From positions 1 to 36,056 of the forward strand of contig SOER01000035.1 in NCBI GenBank assembly GCA_021646405.1: DNA of 36,056 nt. The letters run 5' to 3'. The position numbers and the translations under genes are program-made. This document shows positions 3,779-33,836 of this stretch, piece by piece. Every line of letters begins with the position of its first letter. Positions within the stretch are counted from its first letter, which is position 1. This DNA comes from Candidatus Loosdrechtia aerotolerans. Lineage in GTDB: Bacteria; Planctomycetota; Brocadiia; Brocadiales; Brocadiaceae. The notes beneath the pieces are model-generated. The model was not told the origin of the DNA, made no database searches, and was given only the letters and a program-made list of their open reading frames with translations.

Positions 3779-5146
3779 CTATTCTCCCGTCGGGCATCCG
3801 ATAGCAGAACAAGCACTCATAGAGCCGAGCCAGTCCTCTATCCTTTCGAATCCGCTCTTTTTTAACAACGAAGCGGCTATTGTGGATCTTCTCCCTGTAC
3901 TACAGAATACAGTCATGGGGCGGTTGTCCTTTGGGAGTTTATCCAGGTTATGGGGCAGCTCGCCTACGTAAATATTGATAGCATTCGGAAGATGGCCTTT
4001 TTCAAATTCTTCCTTGCTCCGGACATCCAGAAGGGTAAAATCTTCTTTCGCTTGTATGCGCCGCTTAACCTCTCCTGCATAAATGGTAGGCAGCGTTTCA
4101 TACTTACGACCACTGACTTCCCATTTGCGCAGCCCTTTTTCAAGATAACCGGAAATAGTATCGTATCCGACCCGTATCAGATAACGGACCGCAGCCTCTA
4201 CCTGCTCATACTGATCAACGACCAACCCAATGGGTTTGTCGTAAGGCAAAAACCAGCCGGCAAATGAAGATACCATTTCCAGGGGAATTGCAATACTGCC
4301 GGGAATGGATGCACCTGCAAATGCTTCGGGACTACGCACGTCGAGTACAACCATTCCCTCTTTCATAGCCTTTTCAAAATCATCAACACTAAGCGGAAGT
4401 GGTTTTGGTAAATTTTTAAGGAGCGGTGGTCCTTCCAGATTGAGTGTATGCATGGTGCTGAAATAAGGCGGTTTATAATGATGTTCGTTTACCTTGTAGG
4501 TAATAAACTCATCACGGGTTTTCCGGAGTGCAGGGTTACACATGCGTTCATAGCCAAGTGTTGAAAACTCACGCGAGGCCATACCGCTCCCGCATACAGA
4601 CCCGGCACCGTGCGCTGGATGAAGAATTACCTGATCACCGAGAGGGAGGAGCTTCTGAAAGATACTATCATAAAGAAGACCTGCCACTTCTTCTGCTCTA
4701 TCCGGGTAAAAGTCGGTACGGCCAACATCGCCAATAAAGAGGGCATCGCCGGTAAATACTGCTACCGGTTCTTTGCCAAATTTTTTATCAGTTAAAGAGA
4801 TTGAGATACTTTCATAGGTATGTCCGGGTGTTTCGATTATCTTAAGGTGTATGTCTTCCAATTCAAAAGTATTACCCTCTGATACCGCATTTCCGTAATG
4901 AAAATCAAGATGCTTGCTGTGGTAAATCTGAGCGCATGTCTTATCTGCCAGTTCTTTCGAGCCAATAAGGTAATCCTCATTGCGATGCGTTTCGAAGATG
5001 TGGGTAATGCATGCGTCATGACGAGAGGCAATATCCAGGTAAATATCACAATCGCGGCGGGGATCAACTACAGCGGCCTTTCCGTTATCGCCGAAAATAT
5101 ATGATAAATGTGCCAATCCTTCTGATCGAACTGTTTCCAAGAACAT
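3779..5146 (-). CDS. CstB-like persulfide dioxygenase-rhodanese fusion
   Basis: A 455-residue cytoplasmic protein with an N-terminal metallo-beta-lactamase (ETHE1-type) domain (about 1-245) and two rhodanese domains (about 250-350 and 355-455). The mononuclear-iron ligands expected of a persulfide dioxygenase are present: His54 in ETHRNED, His108 in TPGHT and Asp134 in TGDALF; HPAHG follows at 176-180. The second His of the HxHxDH motif is Asn56. The first rhodanese has no Cys in its loop (GLVVDQYEQ); the second has Cys415 in VFCSTGRRS. This architecture matches staphylococcal CstB, which oxidises persulfides to thiosulfate and sulfite. It lies 20 bases after the DUF442 gene, so the two form a sulfide-detoxification operon. 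AAAGGA precedes the ATG. Confidence 0.9.
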   Translation of the reverse strand: MFLETVRSEGLAHLSYIFGDNGKAAVVDPRRDCDIYLDIASRHDACITHIFETHRNEDYLIGSKELADKTCAQIYHSKHLDFHYGNAVSEGNTFELEDIHLKIIETPGHTYESISISLTDKKFGKEPVAVFTGDALFIGDVGRTDFYPDRAEEVAGLLYDSIFQKLLPLGDQVILHPAHGAGSVCGSGMASREFSTLGYERMCNPALRKTRDEFITYKVNEHHYKPPYFSTMHTLNLEGPPLLKNLPKPLPLSVDDFEKAMKEGMVVLDVRSPEAFAGASIPGSIAIPLEMVSSFAGWFLPYDKPIGLVVDQYEQVEAAVRYLIRVGYDTISGYLEKGLRKWEVSGRKYETLPTIYAGEVKRRIQAKEDFTLLDVRSKEEFEKGHLPNAINIYVGELPHNLDKLPKDNRPMTVFCSTGRRSTIAASLLKKSGFERIEDWLGSMSACSAIGCPTGE

Positions 5147-5166: not shown

Positions 5167-5631
5167 TTAAGCCTTACCTGCTGTTGTATGCTGATTAATG
5201 TAATTTACAAAAAAGTCTTTTAAATGCGGTACGTCACATTCAAATCCCATTGACTGTGCCTTTTGAAGCGCTTCTTCACCCGTCATTCCCCGTTTCAGTG
5301 CCTGATCTATCATGGTAAGTGCACCGGAGCGTTTTCCTCTATGGCAGTGGACGTAGATGGGCTTTGCCATACAATCGAGTGCTTTTCGAACCAGCTCGAT
5401 CTGCTCCGGTTTCGGTACCTCTTTGGTTGATATAGGGATGTTGGTATATTCCATACCTGCTTTTCGTACAAGTTCTTCTTCTGCTTTCGGAGAAAGTGGC
5501 TGATCCTCTTCTCCGGCAGTACGGAGATTAATAACCGATTTAAATCCTTTCTGCGGTAATTTCCTGATCTCTTCTTCCGTTGGCTGTCTTGCAGAGGTTA
5601 TATTGTCATTGATTTTAATTTCGTCTTTCAT
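5167..5631 (-). CDS. DUF442 / Blh-like phosphatase-fold protein of sulfide metabolism
   Basis: A 154-residue single-domain protein of the DUF442 (TIGR01244, 'beta-lactamase hydrolase-like') family with a dual-specificity-phosphatase-like fold. The N-terminal INDNITSARQPTEEEI block and the active-site loop VHCHRGKRSG (Cys96, Arg101, a CX4R form shorter than classical CX5R phosphatases) are typical. In other bacteria such domains stand beside or are fused to persulfide dioxygenases and are thought to act as sulfurtransferases. Here it is the first gene of the three-gene sulfur module. The ATG at 5631 has AAGGGGA upstream. The 95-base spacer behind it contains the palindrome CTTTAAATTTAAAG (5678-5691), a possible control site. 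Confidence 0.85.
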   Translation of the reverse strand: MKDEIKINDNITSARQPTEEEIRKLPQKGFKSVINLRTAGEEDQPLSPKAEEELVRKAGMEYTNIPISTKEVPKPEQIELVRKALDCMAKPIYVHCHRGKRSGALTMIDQALKRGMTGEEALQKAQSMGFECDVPHLKDFFVNYINQHTTAGKA

Positions 5632-5726
5632 GGTAATCCCCTTCGTTATACTGATAGGTACATAAAATACTTTAATACTTTAAATTTAAAGGCAAAATGA
5701 AAACTCTTCTTAAACTATACTCATTT

Positions 5727-7274
5727 TCAAAGCTGTCGTAAGAATGCAACAAGGGCTTTTTTCTCATCCGGAAGTAGCTTCAACCTTAAAACAAGGTTAA
5801 AAAATTCTATCGTATCTTCCAGGGTTAAAAGCCGGCCATCATGCAGATATGGCGGCGAATCCTTAATTCCACGAAGGGTAAAAGACTTAATAGGTCCTTC
5901 AGCAGTAACCCATTTATGATTAACCATATGGGGTTTATAAAAGCGTTCAACCTTCAGATCATGCATTCGGTTATCAAGGTAAAACGGTGCCGGATGGCAC
6001 TCTCCGCAGCGTCCCTTTCCAAAGAATATCTTTTGTCCAAGAAGTTCTTCTTGTGTTGCTTCATCTGGATCAAGCATGCCAAATACATCTAATTTAGGTG
6101 CAGGGGGAAAATCGAACATATTCTGCATTTGTGCCATAAAGGATACCTGACTGGTACGATCCGGGAGGTGAAGTCCCTTTTTTGCCGCAGTTACCTGGTC
6201 GCCATCAAAATAAGCTGTACGCTGTTCAAATTCTGTAAAGTCCTCAATGGATCTCAAAGATCTTTTGGAACCATGAATTTGTTGGTTAAACATACCTCTC
6301 AAACTTACGGTGTCAAGCCGAAAGCGAACAGCCTGAGGCCGGGTGTCAGGGTTTAGATGGAATGCAGCATTCGTATGTCCATTAGCGTGACAATCTAAAC
6401 AAGAAACACCGAGGCTTGGTTCCTCAACTAATCTATCTTCCGTCTGGTTAAATTGCTGCTGGGGAAAGGGTGTGAGGAGAAGTCTCAGACCTTCCATCTG
6501 GACGGGCGTTAGTAAACCGGTCATAATCTCGTAGTAATTCTTAATTGAGAGCAGTTTTCCTTGAGAAACATCACCCAGGTCAGGCCGTGAAGATAAAAAT
6601 ATCGGTGGTGGAAATTCCGGGAGAAGGTGGTCAGGGATATCGAGCTCAACGTCAAAGCGCTCAAGTGAACGCTCCTCCAGCTTCAAGATCTCCTCAATAT
6701 GAAACTTCGGAAAAACCTGACCCCCGATCTCATGTTTTACATGGGGAAGCGGTAAAAATCCCCTGGGAAATAGACCCTGTTCCCGGATCTCTGCAGGAGA
6801 CATTTCTGCGAGTTCTTCCCATGTTGTTCCTTCAGGGAGTTTAACCCTCACACCTTCCTGAATAGGTTTACCTCCGGACATGGTTACACCGCTGGCTGGA
6901 CGGTCACTTAAATCATAAATGGCATTGAGCAGATTCATTTGGGTCTTCATAACACCGGGTTTATTATCTTTCGCTTTAGCCATAAGTTTTTTAAAATCCT
7001 CTTTGATAATGATTGGAAAATAGAAGGTACCACCCCTTTTTGGTGGTAATTCCGGACCTGGTATTTTTTCCTTTTCGGTTAATTTTTGTGCATTTTCTCC
7101 TTTTTCACCCTTCTTTTGTGGAGATCTGCCTTCCTGATTTTCTGCCTTATTTTCCTTGGCGGTCTCAGATGGGGTTGGAGATTCTTGTGCATACACGTAT
7201 CCTGGCAGTGTAGATCCAAGGATGAGGATTATAAACACAGAAAGCATTCGCAGCGCTCCTTTTTCTTTTTTCAT
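5727..7274 (-). CDS. Secreted di-heme cytochrome c (MauG/cytochrome c peroxidase-like)
   Basis: A 515-residue exported protein. An N-terminal hydrophobic signal (to about Ala29) is followed by a charged linker (30-80) and a long conserved region. Two heme-c motifs are visible: CLDCH (292-296) and CGECH (423-427). The C-terminal LRGIKDSPPYLHDGRLLTLEDTIEFFN is the di-heme peroxidase signature region. The substrate is unknown; a periplasmic redox role is likely. It is a paralogue of the next gene, sharing long blocks such as GKPIQEGVRVKLPE, RPDLGDVSQGK, and LLLTPFPQQ followed by FNQTEDR. Two starts are possible: ATG 7274 (AAAGGA, spacing about 9) or ATG 7247 (MLSVFIIL) with a better AAGGAG. I keep the former because it gives the basic n-region expected of a signal peptide. 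Confidence 0.88.
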   Translation of the reverse strand: MKKEKGALRMLSVFIILILGSTLPGYVYAQESPTPSETAKENKAENQEGRSPQKKGEKGENAQKLTEKEKIPGPELPPKRGGTFYFPIIIKEDFKKLMAKAKDNKPGVMKTQMNLLNAIYDLSDRPASGVTMSGGKPIQEGVRVKLPEGTTWEELAEMSPAEIREQGLFPRGFLPLPHVKHEIGGQVFPKFHIEEILKLEERSLERFDVELDIPDHLLPEFPPPIFLSSRPDLGDVSQGKLLSIKNYYEIMTGLLTPVQMEGLRLLLTPFPQQQFNQTEDRLVEEPSLGVSCLDCHANGHTNAAFHLNPDTRPQAVRFRLDTVSLRGMFNQQIHGSKRSLRSIEDFTEFEQRTAYFDGDQVTAAKKGLHLPDRTSQVSFMAQMQNMFDFPPAPKLDVFGMLDPDEATQEELLGQKIFFGKGRCGECHPAPFYLDNRMHDLKVERFYKPHMVNHKWVTAEGPIKSFTLRGIKDSPPYLHDGRLLTLEDTIEFFNLVLRLKLLPDEKKALVAFLRQL

Positions 7275-7350
7275 ATTTTTTTTCCTTTCATGTTTTTTCC
7301 CTCGTAATGTATCCTGTTGTTACAAGAATAGAAGAACTTTTAAGAATATA

Positions 7351-7423
7351 TGGTGGAGGCCGGAAAGGAGGGGAATTTGTTTTTAGCGCCATTTATTCCT
7401 GGCGATTATTCTGGCCTCCACCA
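7351..7423 (-). promoter_or_regulatory. Structured hairpin element, copy 1, upstream of di-heme cytochrome
   Basis: The outer arms TGGTGGAGGCC and GGCCTCCACCA form a perfect 11-bp stem. On the minus strand an inner hairpin (CGCCA...TGGCG) is followed by the single-stranded tract AACAAATTCCCCTCCTTTCC, which contains CCTCCTTT, identical to the 16S rRNA anti-Shine-Dalgarno core. A nearly identical copy precedes the paralogous gene (9522-9593). It lies between the stop of the upstream gene (22 bases) and the start of the downstream gene (77 bases), so it could be a leader RNA, a 3' hairpin of the upstream gene, or a tiny mobile element. Confidence 0.65.
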
Positions 7424-7444
7424 GTGGTTGTTATTTTTATATTT

Positions 7445-9394
7445 TTATAACTGCCGCATGAATGCTACAAGATCATTCTTCTCCTCCTGGCTGAGCTTCA
7501 AGCAAAAAACCAGATTAAAAAATTCAACGGTATCTTCCAGGGTCAATAACCTCCCGTCATGCAAGTACGGTGGAGATTCTTTAATACCACGCAGGGGGAA
7601 TGTCTTGGCAGAGCCATCTGCTGTAGCCATCACGCCATTGATCATACATGGTCTATAAAATTGCTCTATCCTCATGTCATGCTTCGTATTGTCCGTATAA
7701 TGCGGGGCCGGATGACAAACGCCGCATTTTGCCTTTCCAAAGAACAGGGCTTGCCCGCGCATTTCTGATTCTGTTGGATTTTTTTTGGGATCGAGCAGAC
7801 CGTACCTGTCAAGTTTAGGGGCTGGAGGGAAATCCAGGATTCTTTGAAATTCAGCCATTTCTTCTACCTGGACCCTACTAGGCTGGAAAACTCCTTTTTT
7901 TTCTGCTGTTGCAGTATCGCCGTCAAAATAGGCAGTTCTCTGCTCAAACTCGGTAAAATCCTCTATTGTCTGGATAGACCGCTGTAAACCGAATAACCGC
8001 TGTACATGTACCCCCCGTATCGTTGGAGTGTCAAGACGCTTACGAAATGCCTGGGGACGAATATCCTGCTGGAGTTCTATGCTTCCATTCGTATGCCCGT
8101 TCACATGGCAATCAAAACAGGCAGCTCCAAGACTGGGATGTTCAGACCGCCGGTCTTCGGTCTGATTGAATTCCTGCTGCGGAAAAGGGGTGAGTAACAG
8201 CCTGAGTCCCTGAATCTGTTTAGGATTCAATATACCGTTAAATATATCATAGTAATTTTTAATGTTTATCACTTTGCCTTGAGAAACATCGCCAAGGTCA
8301 GGCCGGGTAGTAAGAAATATCGCCGGCGGGAACTCGGGTAAAAAATGGTCAGGCAAATCAAAATCTACATCAAAACGCTTCAGATCCCTCTGCTCCATCT
8401 CTTTAATTGCTTCAATTTCCTGTTCAACGATAACAAAACCTCCCACAGTGTGATTGGGATGAGGCAGTGGCATAAACCCCTCTGGAAATAAGCCTTTTTC
8501 CCTGATTTCCTCAGGACTCATCTCTGCGAGCTTTTCCCATGTCATTTCTTCAGGGAGTTTAACCCGTACCCCTTCCTGAATTGGTTTCCCGCGGGACATC
8601 GTTACACCTTTTGCAGGCTTGTTACTGAGATCATACCGTTCCCCGAGCAAGGTGGTATGGATTTTTGCTATTTTGGGTTTTGCCGCCCTCATTCTTTCCA
8701 TCATCATTTTAAACGGTTCTTTTATAACAACAGGGAAAAAACTTGTGCCCGTCCTTTTCTCCAACTCCGTCTTCTGGTCAGGTGTCAATCCCATCTTCTC
8801 GAGCTCTTCTTTTTCCGCCGTCAACATCTTCATCGTTTCCACAATCTCTTCCCGGGGCATCATTTTTATGATCATCTTTAACATTATTTTCATCATCTCT
8901 TCTTTCTCCGGTGGTATCATCTTCATCATCTTTTCCTTTTCTTCCGGAGACATCATCTCCAACATCATTTTCATCATCTTTGTCTTTTCCTCTGTCGGCA
9001 TCATCTCCATCATCATTTTCATCATCGTTCCTGATTCTTCTTTTTCTTCTTTTTGAGCTGACCCTGTTTCTGGCTCTGGTATCTTCGATGGTGATATCCC
9101 CTTTTCGTGAACAACATTCCGGACCGAGGTCATTTCTTTAGTAAACACTTCCTTTTGATCTGGAGTCATTTCAATGTCGAATAGAGTATCGTGAGCAGAT
9201 TCCAGCTCTCTGATAAATAATTCTTTTTGCTCTGGTGCCATTTCATCATCAAATAATACCGGCTTTTGAACTGGCGGTGTTGTCTTTTCACATAGCTGTT
9301 CCTGGGCAAACACAGTACTACCGAGAAGAACGATCCCGGTAAGTACTTCTAATAACAAGCATCTTGCTGATAATCTTTGTTTTTTTTGCTTCAT
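7445..9394 (-). CDS. Secreted di-heme cytochrome c with Met-rich N-terminal domain
   Basis: A 649-residue paralogue of the 5727-7274 product with an extra N-terminal region. A signal peptide ends near VFA-QE (about residue 31). Residues 50-215 carry repeats of an (M/L)xP(E/D)(E/Q)K type (MAPEQKELF, MTPDQKEVF, MSPEEKEKM, LTPDQKTEL). Within this, residues 121-190 contain 24 Met in 70 residues, with runs such as MMKMMMEMM. The conserved core then follows with heme motifs CFDCH (426-430) and CGVCH (557-561) and the C-terminal YLHDGRLLTLEDTVEFFN. The Met/Glu/Lys stretch is probably helical and could bind copper or another soft metal, or act as an oxidant sink; that is inference. AAGGAG precedes the ATG. 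Same strand and order as its paralogue. Confidence 0.88.
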   Translation of the reverse strand: MKQKKQRLSARCLLLEVLTGIVLLGSTVFAQEQLCEKTTPPVQKPVLFDDEMAPEQKELFIRELESAHDTLFDIEMTPDQKEVFTKEMTSVRNVVHEKGISPSKIPEPETGSAQKEEKEESGTMMKMMMEMMPTEEKTKMMKMMLEMMSPEEKEKMMKMIPPEKEEMMKIMLKMIIKMMPREEIVETMKMLTAEKEELEKMGLTPDQKTELEKRTGTSFFPVVIKEPFKMMMERMRAAKPKIAKIHTTLLGERYDLSNKPAKGVTMSRGKPIQEGVRVKLPEEMTWEKLAEMSPEEIREKGLFPEGFMPLPHPNHTVGGFVIVEQEIEAIKEMEQRDLKRFDVDFDLPDHFLPEFPPAIFLTTRPDLGDVSQGKVINIKNYYDIFNGILNPKQIQGLRLLLTPFPQQEFNQTEDRRSEHPSLGAACFDCHVNGHTNGSIELQQDIRPQAFRKRLDTPTIRGVHVQRLFGLQRSIQTIEDFTEFEQRTAYFDGDTATAEKKGVFQPSRVQVEEMAEFQRILDFPPAPKLDRYGLLDPKKNPTESEMRGQALFFGKAKCGVCHPAPHYTDNTKHDMRIEQFYRPCMINGVMATADGSAKTFPLRGIKESPPYLHDGRLLTLEDTVEFFNLVFCLKLSQEEKNDLVAFMRQL

Positions 9395-9521
9395 ACACTT
9401 CTCCTTGCCAACGTAATTTTACCCTGAACTAAAATACCTGAAGCTTTTGATATAAAGAAAACACCCGTGCGCATTCTGAATAGGATGTGCATACCATCCT
9501 TTTGGAATTTTACGAAAAATA

Positions 9522-9593
9522 TGGTGGAGGCCGGAAAGGAGGGGAATTTGTTTTTGGCGCCATTTATATCGGCGATTATTCTGACCTCCACCA
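9522..9593 (-). promoter_or_regulatory. Structured hairpin element, copy 2, upstream of Met-rich cytochrome
   Basis: Same design as the 7351-7423 element. The outer stem has one change giving a U-G pair (GGTGGAGGTC against GGCCTCCACC), the inner hairpin is CGCC...GGCG with a different loop, and the tract containing CCCCTCCTTTCC is unchanged. It lies 88 bases after the sod stop and 128 bases before the cytochrome start, whose Shine-Dalgarno AAGGAG could pair with it. A 67-codon open frame crosses it (9391-9594), but I do not consider that a gene. Confidence 0.65.
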
Positions 9594-9680: not shown

Positions 9681-10406
9681 TTATCGTACTACGCCTGCTT
9701 CTGCCGCAGGAAAGGTAGCGAGTCTTGACTCCACAACATTCCAATCGATGTTTTTAAAGAAGGCTTCTATATATTCAGCCTTCTTTGTACCGTAATCGAG
9801 CAGAAAGGCATGTTCAAATACATCCATTATTAAGAGGGGATTTCCTCCTGCAAGATGATTGGCATTATGCTCATCGATCCAGAAATTAACGAGCATTCCA
9901 TTTGTGACATCCTGATAGAGAGCAGCCCAGCCGATCCCCCTCATACCTCCTACTCCTTTAAAATCCCTTTCCCATGCTTCATAGCTGCCAAAGGTCTCAT
10001 TTATTTTTGCACTGAGAGTCTTTCCTATCGTAGTACGTTTTTTTGTAAGGTTTTCAAAATAATACTCATGGAGCCTCATTCCGTTGTACTCCCAGCCAAG
10101 TCTTCTCTTTAACTCGGCAAATTCCGGGGTATTTGTACTCTTATTCTCAATCATTTGAGAAAGTGTATTCATAAGTTCATTGGTATTTTTTACATATCCA
10201 TTATAAAGGGTAAAATGGGTTTTTAAGGCGTTATCACTAAACCCATCCATTCCTGTTAAGGAGGAATAATCCTTTGCATCATAACTGTTCGTCATGGCCT
10301 TTCCCTCTTTTTGAAATGTTTTTGCATGTAACTCTTGAGGACCACTGAATAATAAAGCCGCTCCGCTTAATCCAGATAATGTGAGAAACTCACGCCTGTT
10401 AAACAT
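9681..10406 (-). CDS. Tat-exported Fe/Mn superoxide dismutase
   Basis: Dismutates superoxide to oxygen and hydrogen peroxide. The 241-residue protein begins with MFNRREFLTLSGLSGAALLF, a twin-arginine signal (RRxFL) ending near ELHA, so it is exported already folded. The four metal ligands are visible: His64 (LKTHFTLYNGYV), His113 (RLHEYYFENL), Asp195 and His199 (MDVFEHAFLLDYG). The usual DxWEHAY is DVFEHAF, with the Trp replaced. The ATG at 10406 was chosen because of AAAGGAGGT just before it and the Tat motif right after; a longer frame reaches 10487 but has no ribosome site and overlaps the predicted promoter. Lying next to two secreted cytochromes, it may protect that compartment. Fe or Mn preference cannot be told by eye. 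Confidence 0.93.
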   Translation of the reverse strand: MFNRREFLTLSGLSGAALLFSGPQELHAKTFQKEGKAMTNSYDAKDYSSLTGMDGFSDNALKTHFTLYNGYVKNTNELMNTLSQMIENKSTNTPEFAELKRRLGWEYNGMRLHEYYFENLTKKRTTIGKTLSAKINETFGSYEAWERDFKGVGGMRGIGWAALYQDVTNGMLVNFWIDEHNANHLAGGNPLLIMDVFEHAFLLDYGTKKAEYIEAFFKNIDWNVVESRLATFPAAEAGVVR

Positions 10407-10459
10407 AATAACCTCCTTTGAAGGTAAATAAGGGAACTCTTTTTTTAAAGATGTCTTGT

Positions 10460-10487
10460 ATAATACCTCTGGCAACATGCTTGCCAA
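10460..10487 (-). promoter_or_regulatory. Predicted sod promoter with overlapping palindrome
   Basis: On the minus strand TTGGCA (-35, 10482-10487) and TATTAT (-10, 10460-10465) are 16 bases apart, placing the start of transcription about 47 bases before the sod ATG. The inverted repeat TGGCAA-N5-TTGCCA (10470-10486) covers the -35 box and spacer, a likely repressor or activator site. Confidence 0.5.
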
Positions 10488-18229: not shown

Positions 18230-18300
18230 TTTTTAGCTTCATGGTGTTAAGACCGGAGAGTCTTTAACGCGATACATTCTGACTGAATCAGAAATAGCCG

Positions 18301-18350
18301 AACAGTCCTTTTCCTAACGCTTTTAACCCTGAACCCTAAACCTGAGGAAT
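18301..18350 (+). repeat. Dispersed AACAGTCCTTTT...TTTTAACCCTGAACCC repeat, copy 2
   Basis: AACAGTCCTTTTCCTAACGC, TTTTAACCCTGAACCCTAAA and CCTGAGGAAT. The first 36 bases or so are the same as 33718-33757, and the 3' part matches 535-573. Confidence 0.65.
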
Positions 18351-29855: not shown

Positions 29856-30021
29856 TGCATCAAGCTCAGGAACAAAGCAGTACTTTTTCTGATCCTCACA
29901 CAAAGTCACCAAGGCACCAAGGTATATGGCATATCCCCATTCTTGACACTTTATCCTTCATCATTCTTTATTCTCTGTGTCTCCGTGTCTTTGTGTGATG
30001 AAAATACTTTAGCTTGATGCA
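29856..30021. repeat. Foldback intergenic repeat with nested inverted arms
   Basis: The outer arms TGCATCAAGCT (29856-29866) and AGCTTGATGCA (30011-30021) enclose the inner arms TCACACAAAG (29896-29905) and CTTTGTGTGA (29989-29998). The left inner half and the TATCCTTCATCATTCTTTATTC part recur at 33151-33240. The spacer 29658-30048 otherwise has no gene. Confidence 0.6.
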
Positions 30022-33150: not shown

Positions 33151-33240
33151 ATCCTCACACAAAGCCACCAGGATGCCAGGATAATCGTGTATTCCCATTC
33201 TGTATTCTTGGTATTCTATCCTTCATCATTCTTTATTCCC
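33151..33240 (+). repeat. Second copy of the CTCACACAAAG...CATCATTCTTTATTC repeat
   Basis: ATCCTCACACAAAGCCACCA and TATCCTTCATCATTCTTTAT match the repeat at 29891-29975 with some divergence. It lies in the hsp20-groL spacer. Confidence 0.6.
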
Positions 33241-33250
33241 TATTTTCTCG

Positions 33251-33406: not shown

Positions 33407-33475
33407 AGCTCCGTTAGGAGCGGTATGTTAAGAGAAAAACACTATACACCACTATCAAGCTCCGGAGGAGCGGCA
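33407..33475 (+). repeat. AGCTCC...GGAGCG repeat, copies 2 and 3
   Basis: AGCTCCGTTAGGAGCGGTAT (from 33407) and AGCTCCGGAGGAGCGGCA (33458-33475) are members of the repeat family also found at 426-450. Confidence 0.6.
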
Positions 33476-33484
33476 GAGAAGGCG

Positions 33485-33632
33485 TTCCCCTCCCTCGCCT
33501 GTCCTGAGAGGAGGCGAAGGGATGGGAGGGGTTAGAGGAGGGTGATGGAACATGCAACACACTTTCTTCCTTCACCCCCACCTAACCTCCCCCATTCCTT
33601 CGATTCCTCTCAGGACAGGCAAGGGGGAGGAA
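33485..33632. repeat. Long imperfect foldback
   Basis: The left arm contains CGCCTGTCCTGAGAGGA, GAAGG and GGGGTTAG; the right arm contains the complementary CTAACC, CCTTC and TCCTCTCAGGACAGGC. Together they form arms of about 55-60 bases around a loop near 33545-33570. The right arm's TTCACCCCCACCTAACC is a very common intergenic repeat motif. Confidence 0.6.
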
Positions 33633-33717
33633 CACCTGGTCTGAAATTCTTTAACATCGCGGTATATAGGACACAGAAACAATCGATGCTAATCGTACCG
33701 AATCTTTATACCATCCC

Positions 33718-33836
33718 AACAGTCCTTTTCCTAACGCTTTTAACCCTGAACCCTGAGGGTCACCAACATGTCGCTCCTCTGGAGCTTACTATGGAGGTAC
33801 ATTCTCATTCTATTAGCATGACGCTCCTCCGGAGCT
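33718..33836. repeat. Composite repeat: TTTTAACCCTGAACCC unit plus two AGCTCC palindromes
   Basis: 33718-33757 repeats 18301-18350. It is followed by AACATGTCGCTCCTCTGGAG (from 33764) and AGCATGACGCTCCTCCGGAG (from 33815), which are reverse-strand copies of the 426-450 family. The arrangement shows that the two repeat types can travel together. Confidence 0.6.

Follow-up and report, generated by a model that had tools for sequence, protein, structure and literature searches.

We analyzed a 36,056-nucleotide stretch of DNA from Candidatus Loosdrechtia aerotolerans (here called the window), in which a cluster of genes related to oxidative stress lies on the minus strand. An Fe/Mn superoxide dismutase gene (SOD; Sod_Fe_C in Pfam; 9681..10487) is followed by cytA (7445..9394) and cytB (5727..7274), each encoding a two-CxxCH cytochrome identified by motifs, similarity, and phylogeny, and then by genes for a DSP-PTPase/BLH-type phosphatase (5167..5631) and a metallo-beta-lactamase (MBL)/rhodanese protein (3779..5146), the conserved next gene of the cluster, both assigned by Pfam. 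Judging from its translation, the SOD likely starts at an internal ATG (MFNRREFL...), and its N-terminus appears to carry a Tat-like signal. The N-terminal part of CytA (window positions 8871-9011) contains methionine/lysine/glutamate-rich internal repeats (MMKMM...EMM), which lie N-terminal to the cytochrome domain.

The two cytochromes bear only remote similarity to MauG and the bacterial cytochrome c peroxidases, cytA being of a remote bCcP/MauG type, and public-record names for proteins of either kind include "cytochrome B6." Other anammox genomes often have SOD directly after one such cytochrome, which makes it fair to infer that the cytochrome is a peroxidase-like partner of SOD. In a phylogeny of 121 proteins, cytA groups with other Brocadiales cytochromes (SH-aLRT of 98-100), and cytB groups with Desulfobacterota/Myxococcota homologs, namely those of Desulfobacteraceae and other deltaproteobacteria (SH-aLRT of 94-97). 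Since they fall in separate clades, cytA and cytB appear to derive from different sources and to have been brought together.

The window contains two copies of a short structured element in the gaps of this cluster, both read on the minus strand. Copy 1 (9523..9592) lies between SOD and cytA, 88 nt past the SOD stop codon and 128 nt ahead of the cytA start, and copy 2 (7352..7422) lies between cytA and cytB, 22 nt past the cytA stop codon and 77 nt ahead of the listed cytB start. The copies are 93% identical and stand where the initial annotation placed them, and the same element precedes cytA and cytB although the two genes differ in origin. In the mRNA sense, the window copies read GGUGGAGGYC-AGAA-UAAUCGCC...GGCGCYAAAAACAAAUU-CCCCUCC-UUUCC-GGCCUCCACC. 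In the predicted fold, a 10-bp outer stem is combined with a mismatch and a GAA/UUC step, CCCCUCC stays unpaired, and the apex forms a small hairpin. The outer stem of copy 1 is formed by the 5' arm GGUGGAGGUC (9583..9592), which includes a U-G wobble, and a 3' arm at 9523..9532, and that of copy 2 is formed by GGUGGAGGCC (7413..7422) and GGCCUCCACC (7352..7361). Next to the 3' arm stands CCCCUCCUUUCC, placed by sequence and fold at 9533..9544 in copy 1 and at 7362..7373 in copy 2, where it comprises the unpaired CCCCUCC plus UUUC and holds a 9-nt match to the 16S 3' end; CCCCTCCTTTCC is present at these positions in both copies.

An outer stem of 11 bp had been described earlier; the predicted stem has 10 bp, with flanking pairs extending some copies to 11, and the C-to-U change pointed out at the same time does yield a U-G pair. 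Relative to dinucleotide shuffles, the folding z scores of the two copies are -5.0 and -4.8 on the sense (minus) strand and -3.8 and -3.6 on the opposite strand. Copies 1 and 2 score 67.7 and 63.5 bits, respectively, with our covariance model R1, both being within its training set. No Rfam family was matched at its gathering threshold, the only matches being sub-threshold ones (miRNA, GOLLD, and MicA) that all lie far below it, in agreement with the earlier suggestion of a structured element unlike familiar riboswitches.

Only these two copies turned up in the organism's own 3.26-Mb genome, whether it was searched by BLAST, with the covariance model, or with a 24-nt pattern allowing up to 3 mismatches. 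Three Candidatus Jettenia genomes, including Candidatus Jettenia ecosi J2 (SULG01000006.1), carry three copies apiece, all inside the same gene cluster, which is arranged as SOD-element-cytA-element-cytB-element-phosphatase-MBL/rhodanese. The element is absent from all other genomes searched (62 of the order and a 392-genome sample of the phylum). A homolog of the cytochrome is present in 41 of 60 genomes, the tandem cytA-cytB pair occurs only in the four element-bearing genomes, and the other 37 genomes with a homolog lack the element. It was likewise not found at 80 loci with cytochrome homologs from other phyla, except in Jettenia ecosi itself, or in the viral contigs searched. Searches for copies outside the cluster by BLAST, pattern, and covariance model, covering the own genome, the order, and the phylum sample, returned only coding-region or chance matches. 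Two candidates were rejected as extra copies, the sole 3-mismatch pattern match (G001), which falls within a gene, and a match in G022, which falls in a coding-looking stretch; weak matches of 16-27 bits were seen in G037, G039, L108, and L042. Copies scattered at random intergenic sites, the outcome named beforehand as refuting a regulatory role, were not encountered, and the element is tied to the cluster. It probably represents an RNA control element not described before and specific to this cluster of anammox genes, and it occurs in two genera.

The window also carries repeats of other kinds. A large palindrome at 33474-33643, with 77-nt arms that are 81% complementary, is a member of a repeat family that is dispersed in the genome and matches at least ten of its other contigs, and further direct repeats are 79-98% identical (18298-18337 with 33715-33754 and 29892-29976 with 33151-33241).

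At all five positions, the element lies nearer the preceding stop codon than the next start codon. The distance from stop codon to element is 28, 13, and 10 nt in Jettenia and 88 and 22 nt in the window, hence 10-28 nt at four of the five positions with copy 1 of the window as the outlier, and the distance to the next start is 234-248, 61, and 84-112 nt in Jettenia and 128 and 77 nt in the window. By position, it is linked to the end of the gene before it no less than to the start of the gene after it. The third Jettenia copy follows cytB and precedes the phosphatase gene, which encodes no cytochrome; the corresponding gap in the window (5632-5726) lacks it, so the third copy is dispensable. 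Because the element hugs the preceding stop codon and also precedes a noncytochrome gene in Jettenia, "leader of di-heme cytochrome genes" is too narrow a description. The initial annotation was right that the element occupies the gaps before both di-heme cytochrome genes, but the phosphatase copy in Jettenia and the 37 cytochrome-bearing genomes without an element argue against cytochrome specificity, and its position follows the preceding stop codon rather than keeping a consistent place before this cytochrome family. The copies are on the sense strand and upstream of genes, as proposed for a cis element in an mRNA leader, but they lie between cistrons rather than at a demonstrated mRNA 5' end. 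In G012, the listed cytB open reading frame ends early through an internal TGA (L133, about 6876-8309), either an assembly error or a broken gene, and the element lies 10 nt past the stop codon of its relatives. In the gap ahead of cytA in L135 (G005), a second hairpin, AATACCCGAC...GTCGGGTATT, lies between the element and cytA, and the changes in it in G012 and G017 look compensatory by eye.

The element is far better conserved than its surroundings. Ten of the 11 copies share an identical 24-nt half, TTCCCCTCCTTTCCGGCCTCCACC, and the eleventh differs by one wobble-keeping change, while four-fold (synonymous) sites of the orthologous cytochrome genes are 39-49% identical between the genera. 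The intergenic gaps of the window and Jettenia align poorly outside the element, except for a short stretch ahead of the cytA start that looks similar by eye. Among the Jettenia genomes, conservation is 99-100% for the copies at cytA and cytB, against 80-82% in the downstream gap. The near-invariance of the 24-nt half despite the divergence of four-fold sites, together with this difference within Jettenia, points to purifying selection on the sequence, not leftover homology. Copies within a genome are nonetheless more alike (93% in the window; 80-96%) than copies at the same position across genera (61-77%), despite the orthology of the cytochromes themselves. In each lineage, the copies would therefore have been either homogenized inside the cluster or kept similar because they share a binding partner.

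The few substitutions in the outer stem bear on whether the element acts as RNA. Two are C/U changes and a third creates G-U, and all three retain pairing on the sense strand and would make A-C mismatches on the opposite strand, an argument that rests on three events and has a chance probability of about 1 in 8. Compensatory changes are almost absent, the sole double change sitting in a region of uncertain alignment, and because the stem hardly varies, covariation cannot prove pairing. Element length ranges from 70 to 79 nt across copies, and the variation is limited to the inner and apical part with the arms intact, which is easier to reconcile with a hairpin than with a rigid DNA site. The pattern is suggestive of an element that acts as RNA rather than DNA.

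The unpaired tract resembles the tail of the ribosomal RNA. The 16S gene of the same genome ends in ...GGATCACCTCCTTTCTAAGG, its 3' end reads GGATCACCTCCTTTCT, and CCUCCUUUC of the element is a 9-nt match to it (the stretch common to both is CCTCCTTTC), which 45-57 of 20,000 dinucleotide shuffles also reached in a test chosen post hoc, after the match had been seen. In full-leader folds, CCCCUCC is predicted to be unpaired with a probability of about 1, and the tract is invariant in 11 copies. Most of UUUC is predicted to pair with the stem GAA(A) and hence is not exposed. As first described, the element contains an anti-Shine-Dalgarno sequence, which is predicted to be exposed in CCCCUCC but not in most of UUUC.

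We tentatively favor a cis-acting RNA hairpin between cistrons, one that controls how stable the individual segments of an mRNA are, or how well they are translated, and whose pyrimidine bulge serves for recognition. SOD, cytA, and cytB, plus the phosphatase gene in Jettenia, would be cotranscribed as one polycistronic mRNA. After processing or decay of this mRNA, the GC-rich outer stem would shield each upstream segment at its 3' end or, alternatively, mark a cleavage boundary, so that genes of one mRNA could reach different levels. The conserved unpaired CCCCUCC would be what is recognized, whether by a Shine-Dalgarno sequence, an RNA-binding protein, or an RNase. This reading is supported by the element's nearness to preceding stop codons, its place after three successive genes in Jettenia, the strong folding of the sense strand, the length variation and stem substitutions described above, and the near-invariance of the 24-nt half. 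As with intercistronic protective hairpins, a stable predicted hairpin stands close behind the upstream stop codon, here within a presumed operon. Established analogs are the malE-malF hairpin and the consecutive protective hairpins after menB and menC (PMC5927463), which are likewise stable, stand close behind successive genes of a cluster, and lack a good U tract. In contrast to malE-malF and menBCE, the element reuses the same sequence in each gap and has a near-invariant unpaired pyrimidine tract. The invariant CCCCUCCUUUCC needs an added role, because a protective hairpin alone requires no conserved sequence.

The element could instead be an anti-Shine-Dalgarno translational switch, in which the bulge pairs with the downstream Shine-Dalgarno site or mimics the 16S tail until a signal or a change of fold frees it; we regard this as rather unlikely. 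The rarity of the 16S match in shuffles and the unpaired, invariant tract favor it, and each of the downstream genes carries AAGGAG or GAAAGGA, with which the bulge is predicted to form a duplex of -8.2 to -10.5 kcal/mol. However, the 16S tail forms duplexes with these sites that are about as good or only slightly weaker, a result to be expected of any Shine-Dalgarno sequence and no evidence of specific control. The distance to the start codon also varies from 61 to 248 nt, and pairing of the bulge with the Shine-Dalgarno site would form a pseudoknot. Translational riboswitches and anti-Shine-Dalgarno leaders resemble the element as structured RNAs with a Shine-Dalgarno-complementary single strand upstream of coding regions, but the element is intercistronic, stands far from start codons, and matches no Rfam family. 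Trans targets were rejected, as exact 12-nt complements of the bulge elsewhere are single sites in unrelated contexts with no shared target. One is the clear Shine-Dalgarno region of an unrelated gene, GGAAAGGAGGGG in L188 around 1500 (G000:C8:16686), whose product by eye combines a secreted N-terminal domain with a C-terminal part resembling an ammonium transporter; this complementarity is probably due to chance. Of the cis-acting switch in the initial annotation, what stands is a conserved structured element whose single-stranded tract can pair with the genes' own sites; the pairing barely exceeds that of the 16S tail, and the element is not specific to di-heme cytochromes.

A more far-reaching proposal, which we hold to be doubtful, is an undescribed class of intercistronic RNA in which the bulge mimics the 16S 3' end after each gene, and binding by the ribosome or a Shine-Dalgarno sequence would make the translation or decay of a gene depend on termination at the gene before it, the element being reused and kept uniform along one oxidative-stress-type mRNA.

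Intercistronic transcription attenuation, in which the GC-rich stem and a short T-rich stretch (ATATTTTT, CGATTTTC, and others) would partly terminate transcription and so grade expression along the operon, is improbable. The element does sit after stop codons, and a few nucleotides at most separate its 10 GC-rich pairs from a tract rich in T (about 4-6 of 8 positions in the copies read), but this tract is short and not adjacent to the stem, and the hairpin is long, with internal loops. A consensus scan for terminators passed over the outer stem, but its limit on loop size would rule out such a hairpin in any case, and attenuation leaves the invariant bulge unexplained.

There is similarly little to recommend a palindromic DNA element (REP-, MITE-, or attC-like) of selfish or recombinational nature that spread by local copying. 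Copies within a genome are more alike than those at the same locus across genera, so copying or conversion within the cluster may have happened, and the adjoining genes are not themselves duplicates. Only two or three copies exist, however, all in one cluster, in contrast to the dispersed palindrome at 33474-33643 of the same genome, and conservation between genera goes far beyond that of synonymous sites. REP elements, defined as extragenic palindromes of 14-50 nt (PMC12306157), share with the element its extragenic position, its imperfect palindromic hairpin, and the high similarity of copies, but the element is 70-79 nt long and has two to three copies in one cluster rather than hundreds scattered through a genome. 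Integron attC sites are also imperfect palindromes just past each stop codon, with near-identical copies after different genes; the element lacks their GTTRRRY/RYYYAAC boxes, which led us to reject this identity, its cluster is conserved between genera, and no viral copies were found. Gene duplication as the origin of the two copies was rejected, as cytA and cytB fall in different clades, and with no other copies in the genome, the earlier alternative of a palindromic mobile element copied with the gene is disfavored.

Least probable of all is a double-stranded DNA operator at each gene, its inverted GGTGGAGGYC half-sites being recognized by a regulator. This reading would account for the near-invariant inverted arms, the single copy per gap, and the mutual likeness of copies in one genome as sites of one factor, but not for arm spacing that shifts by 4 and 8 bp between copies and so changes helical phase, an invariant asymmetric tract unexpected in a symmetric operator, or T/C and G-T variation that retains pairing on the mRNA strand only.

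In our analysis, the intercistronic hairpin is the best fit, ranking above the anti-Shine-Dalgarno switch, the attenuator, the DNA operator, and the palindromic DNA element. To our knowledge, little is known about RNA-level regulation in anammox bacteria, and a literature search on the subject brought nothing relevant by title or abstract. With its confinement to one superoxide dismutase/peroxidase-like cluster, its repetition gap by gap, and a copy of the 16S tail at its core, the element offers a compact test case for how protein ratios may be set within an anammox operon, and the covariance model R1 can be used to screen further Brocadiaceae genomes for it.
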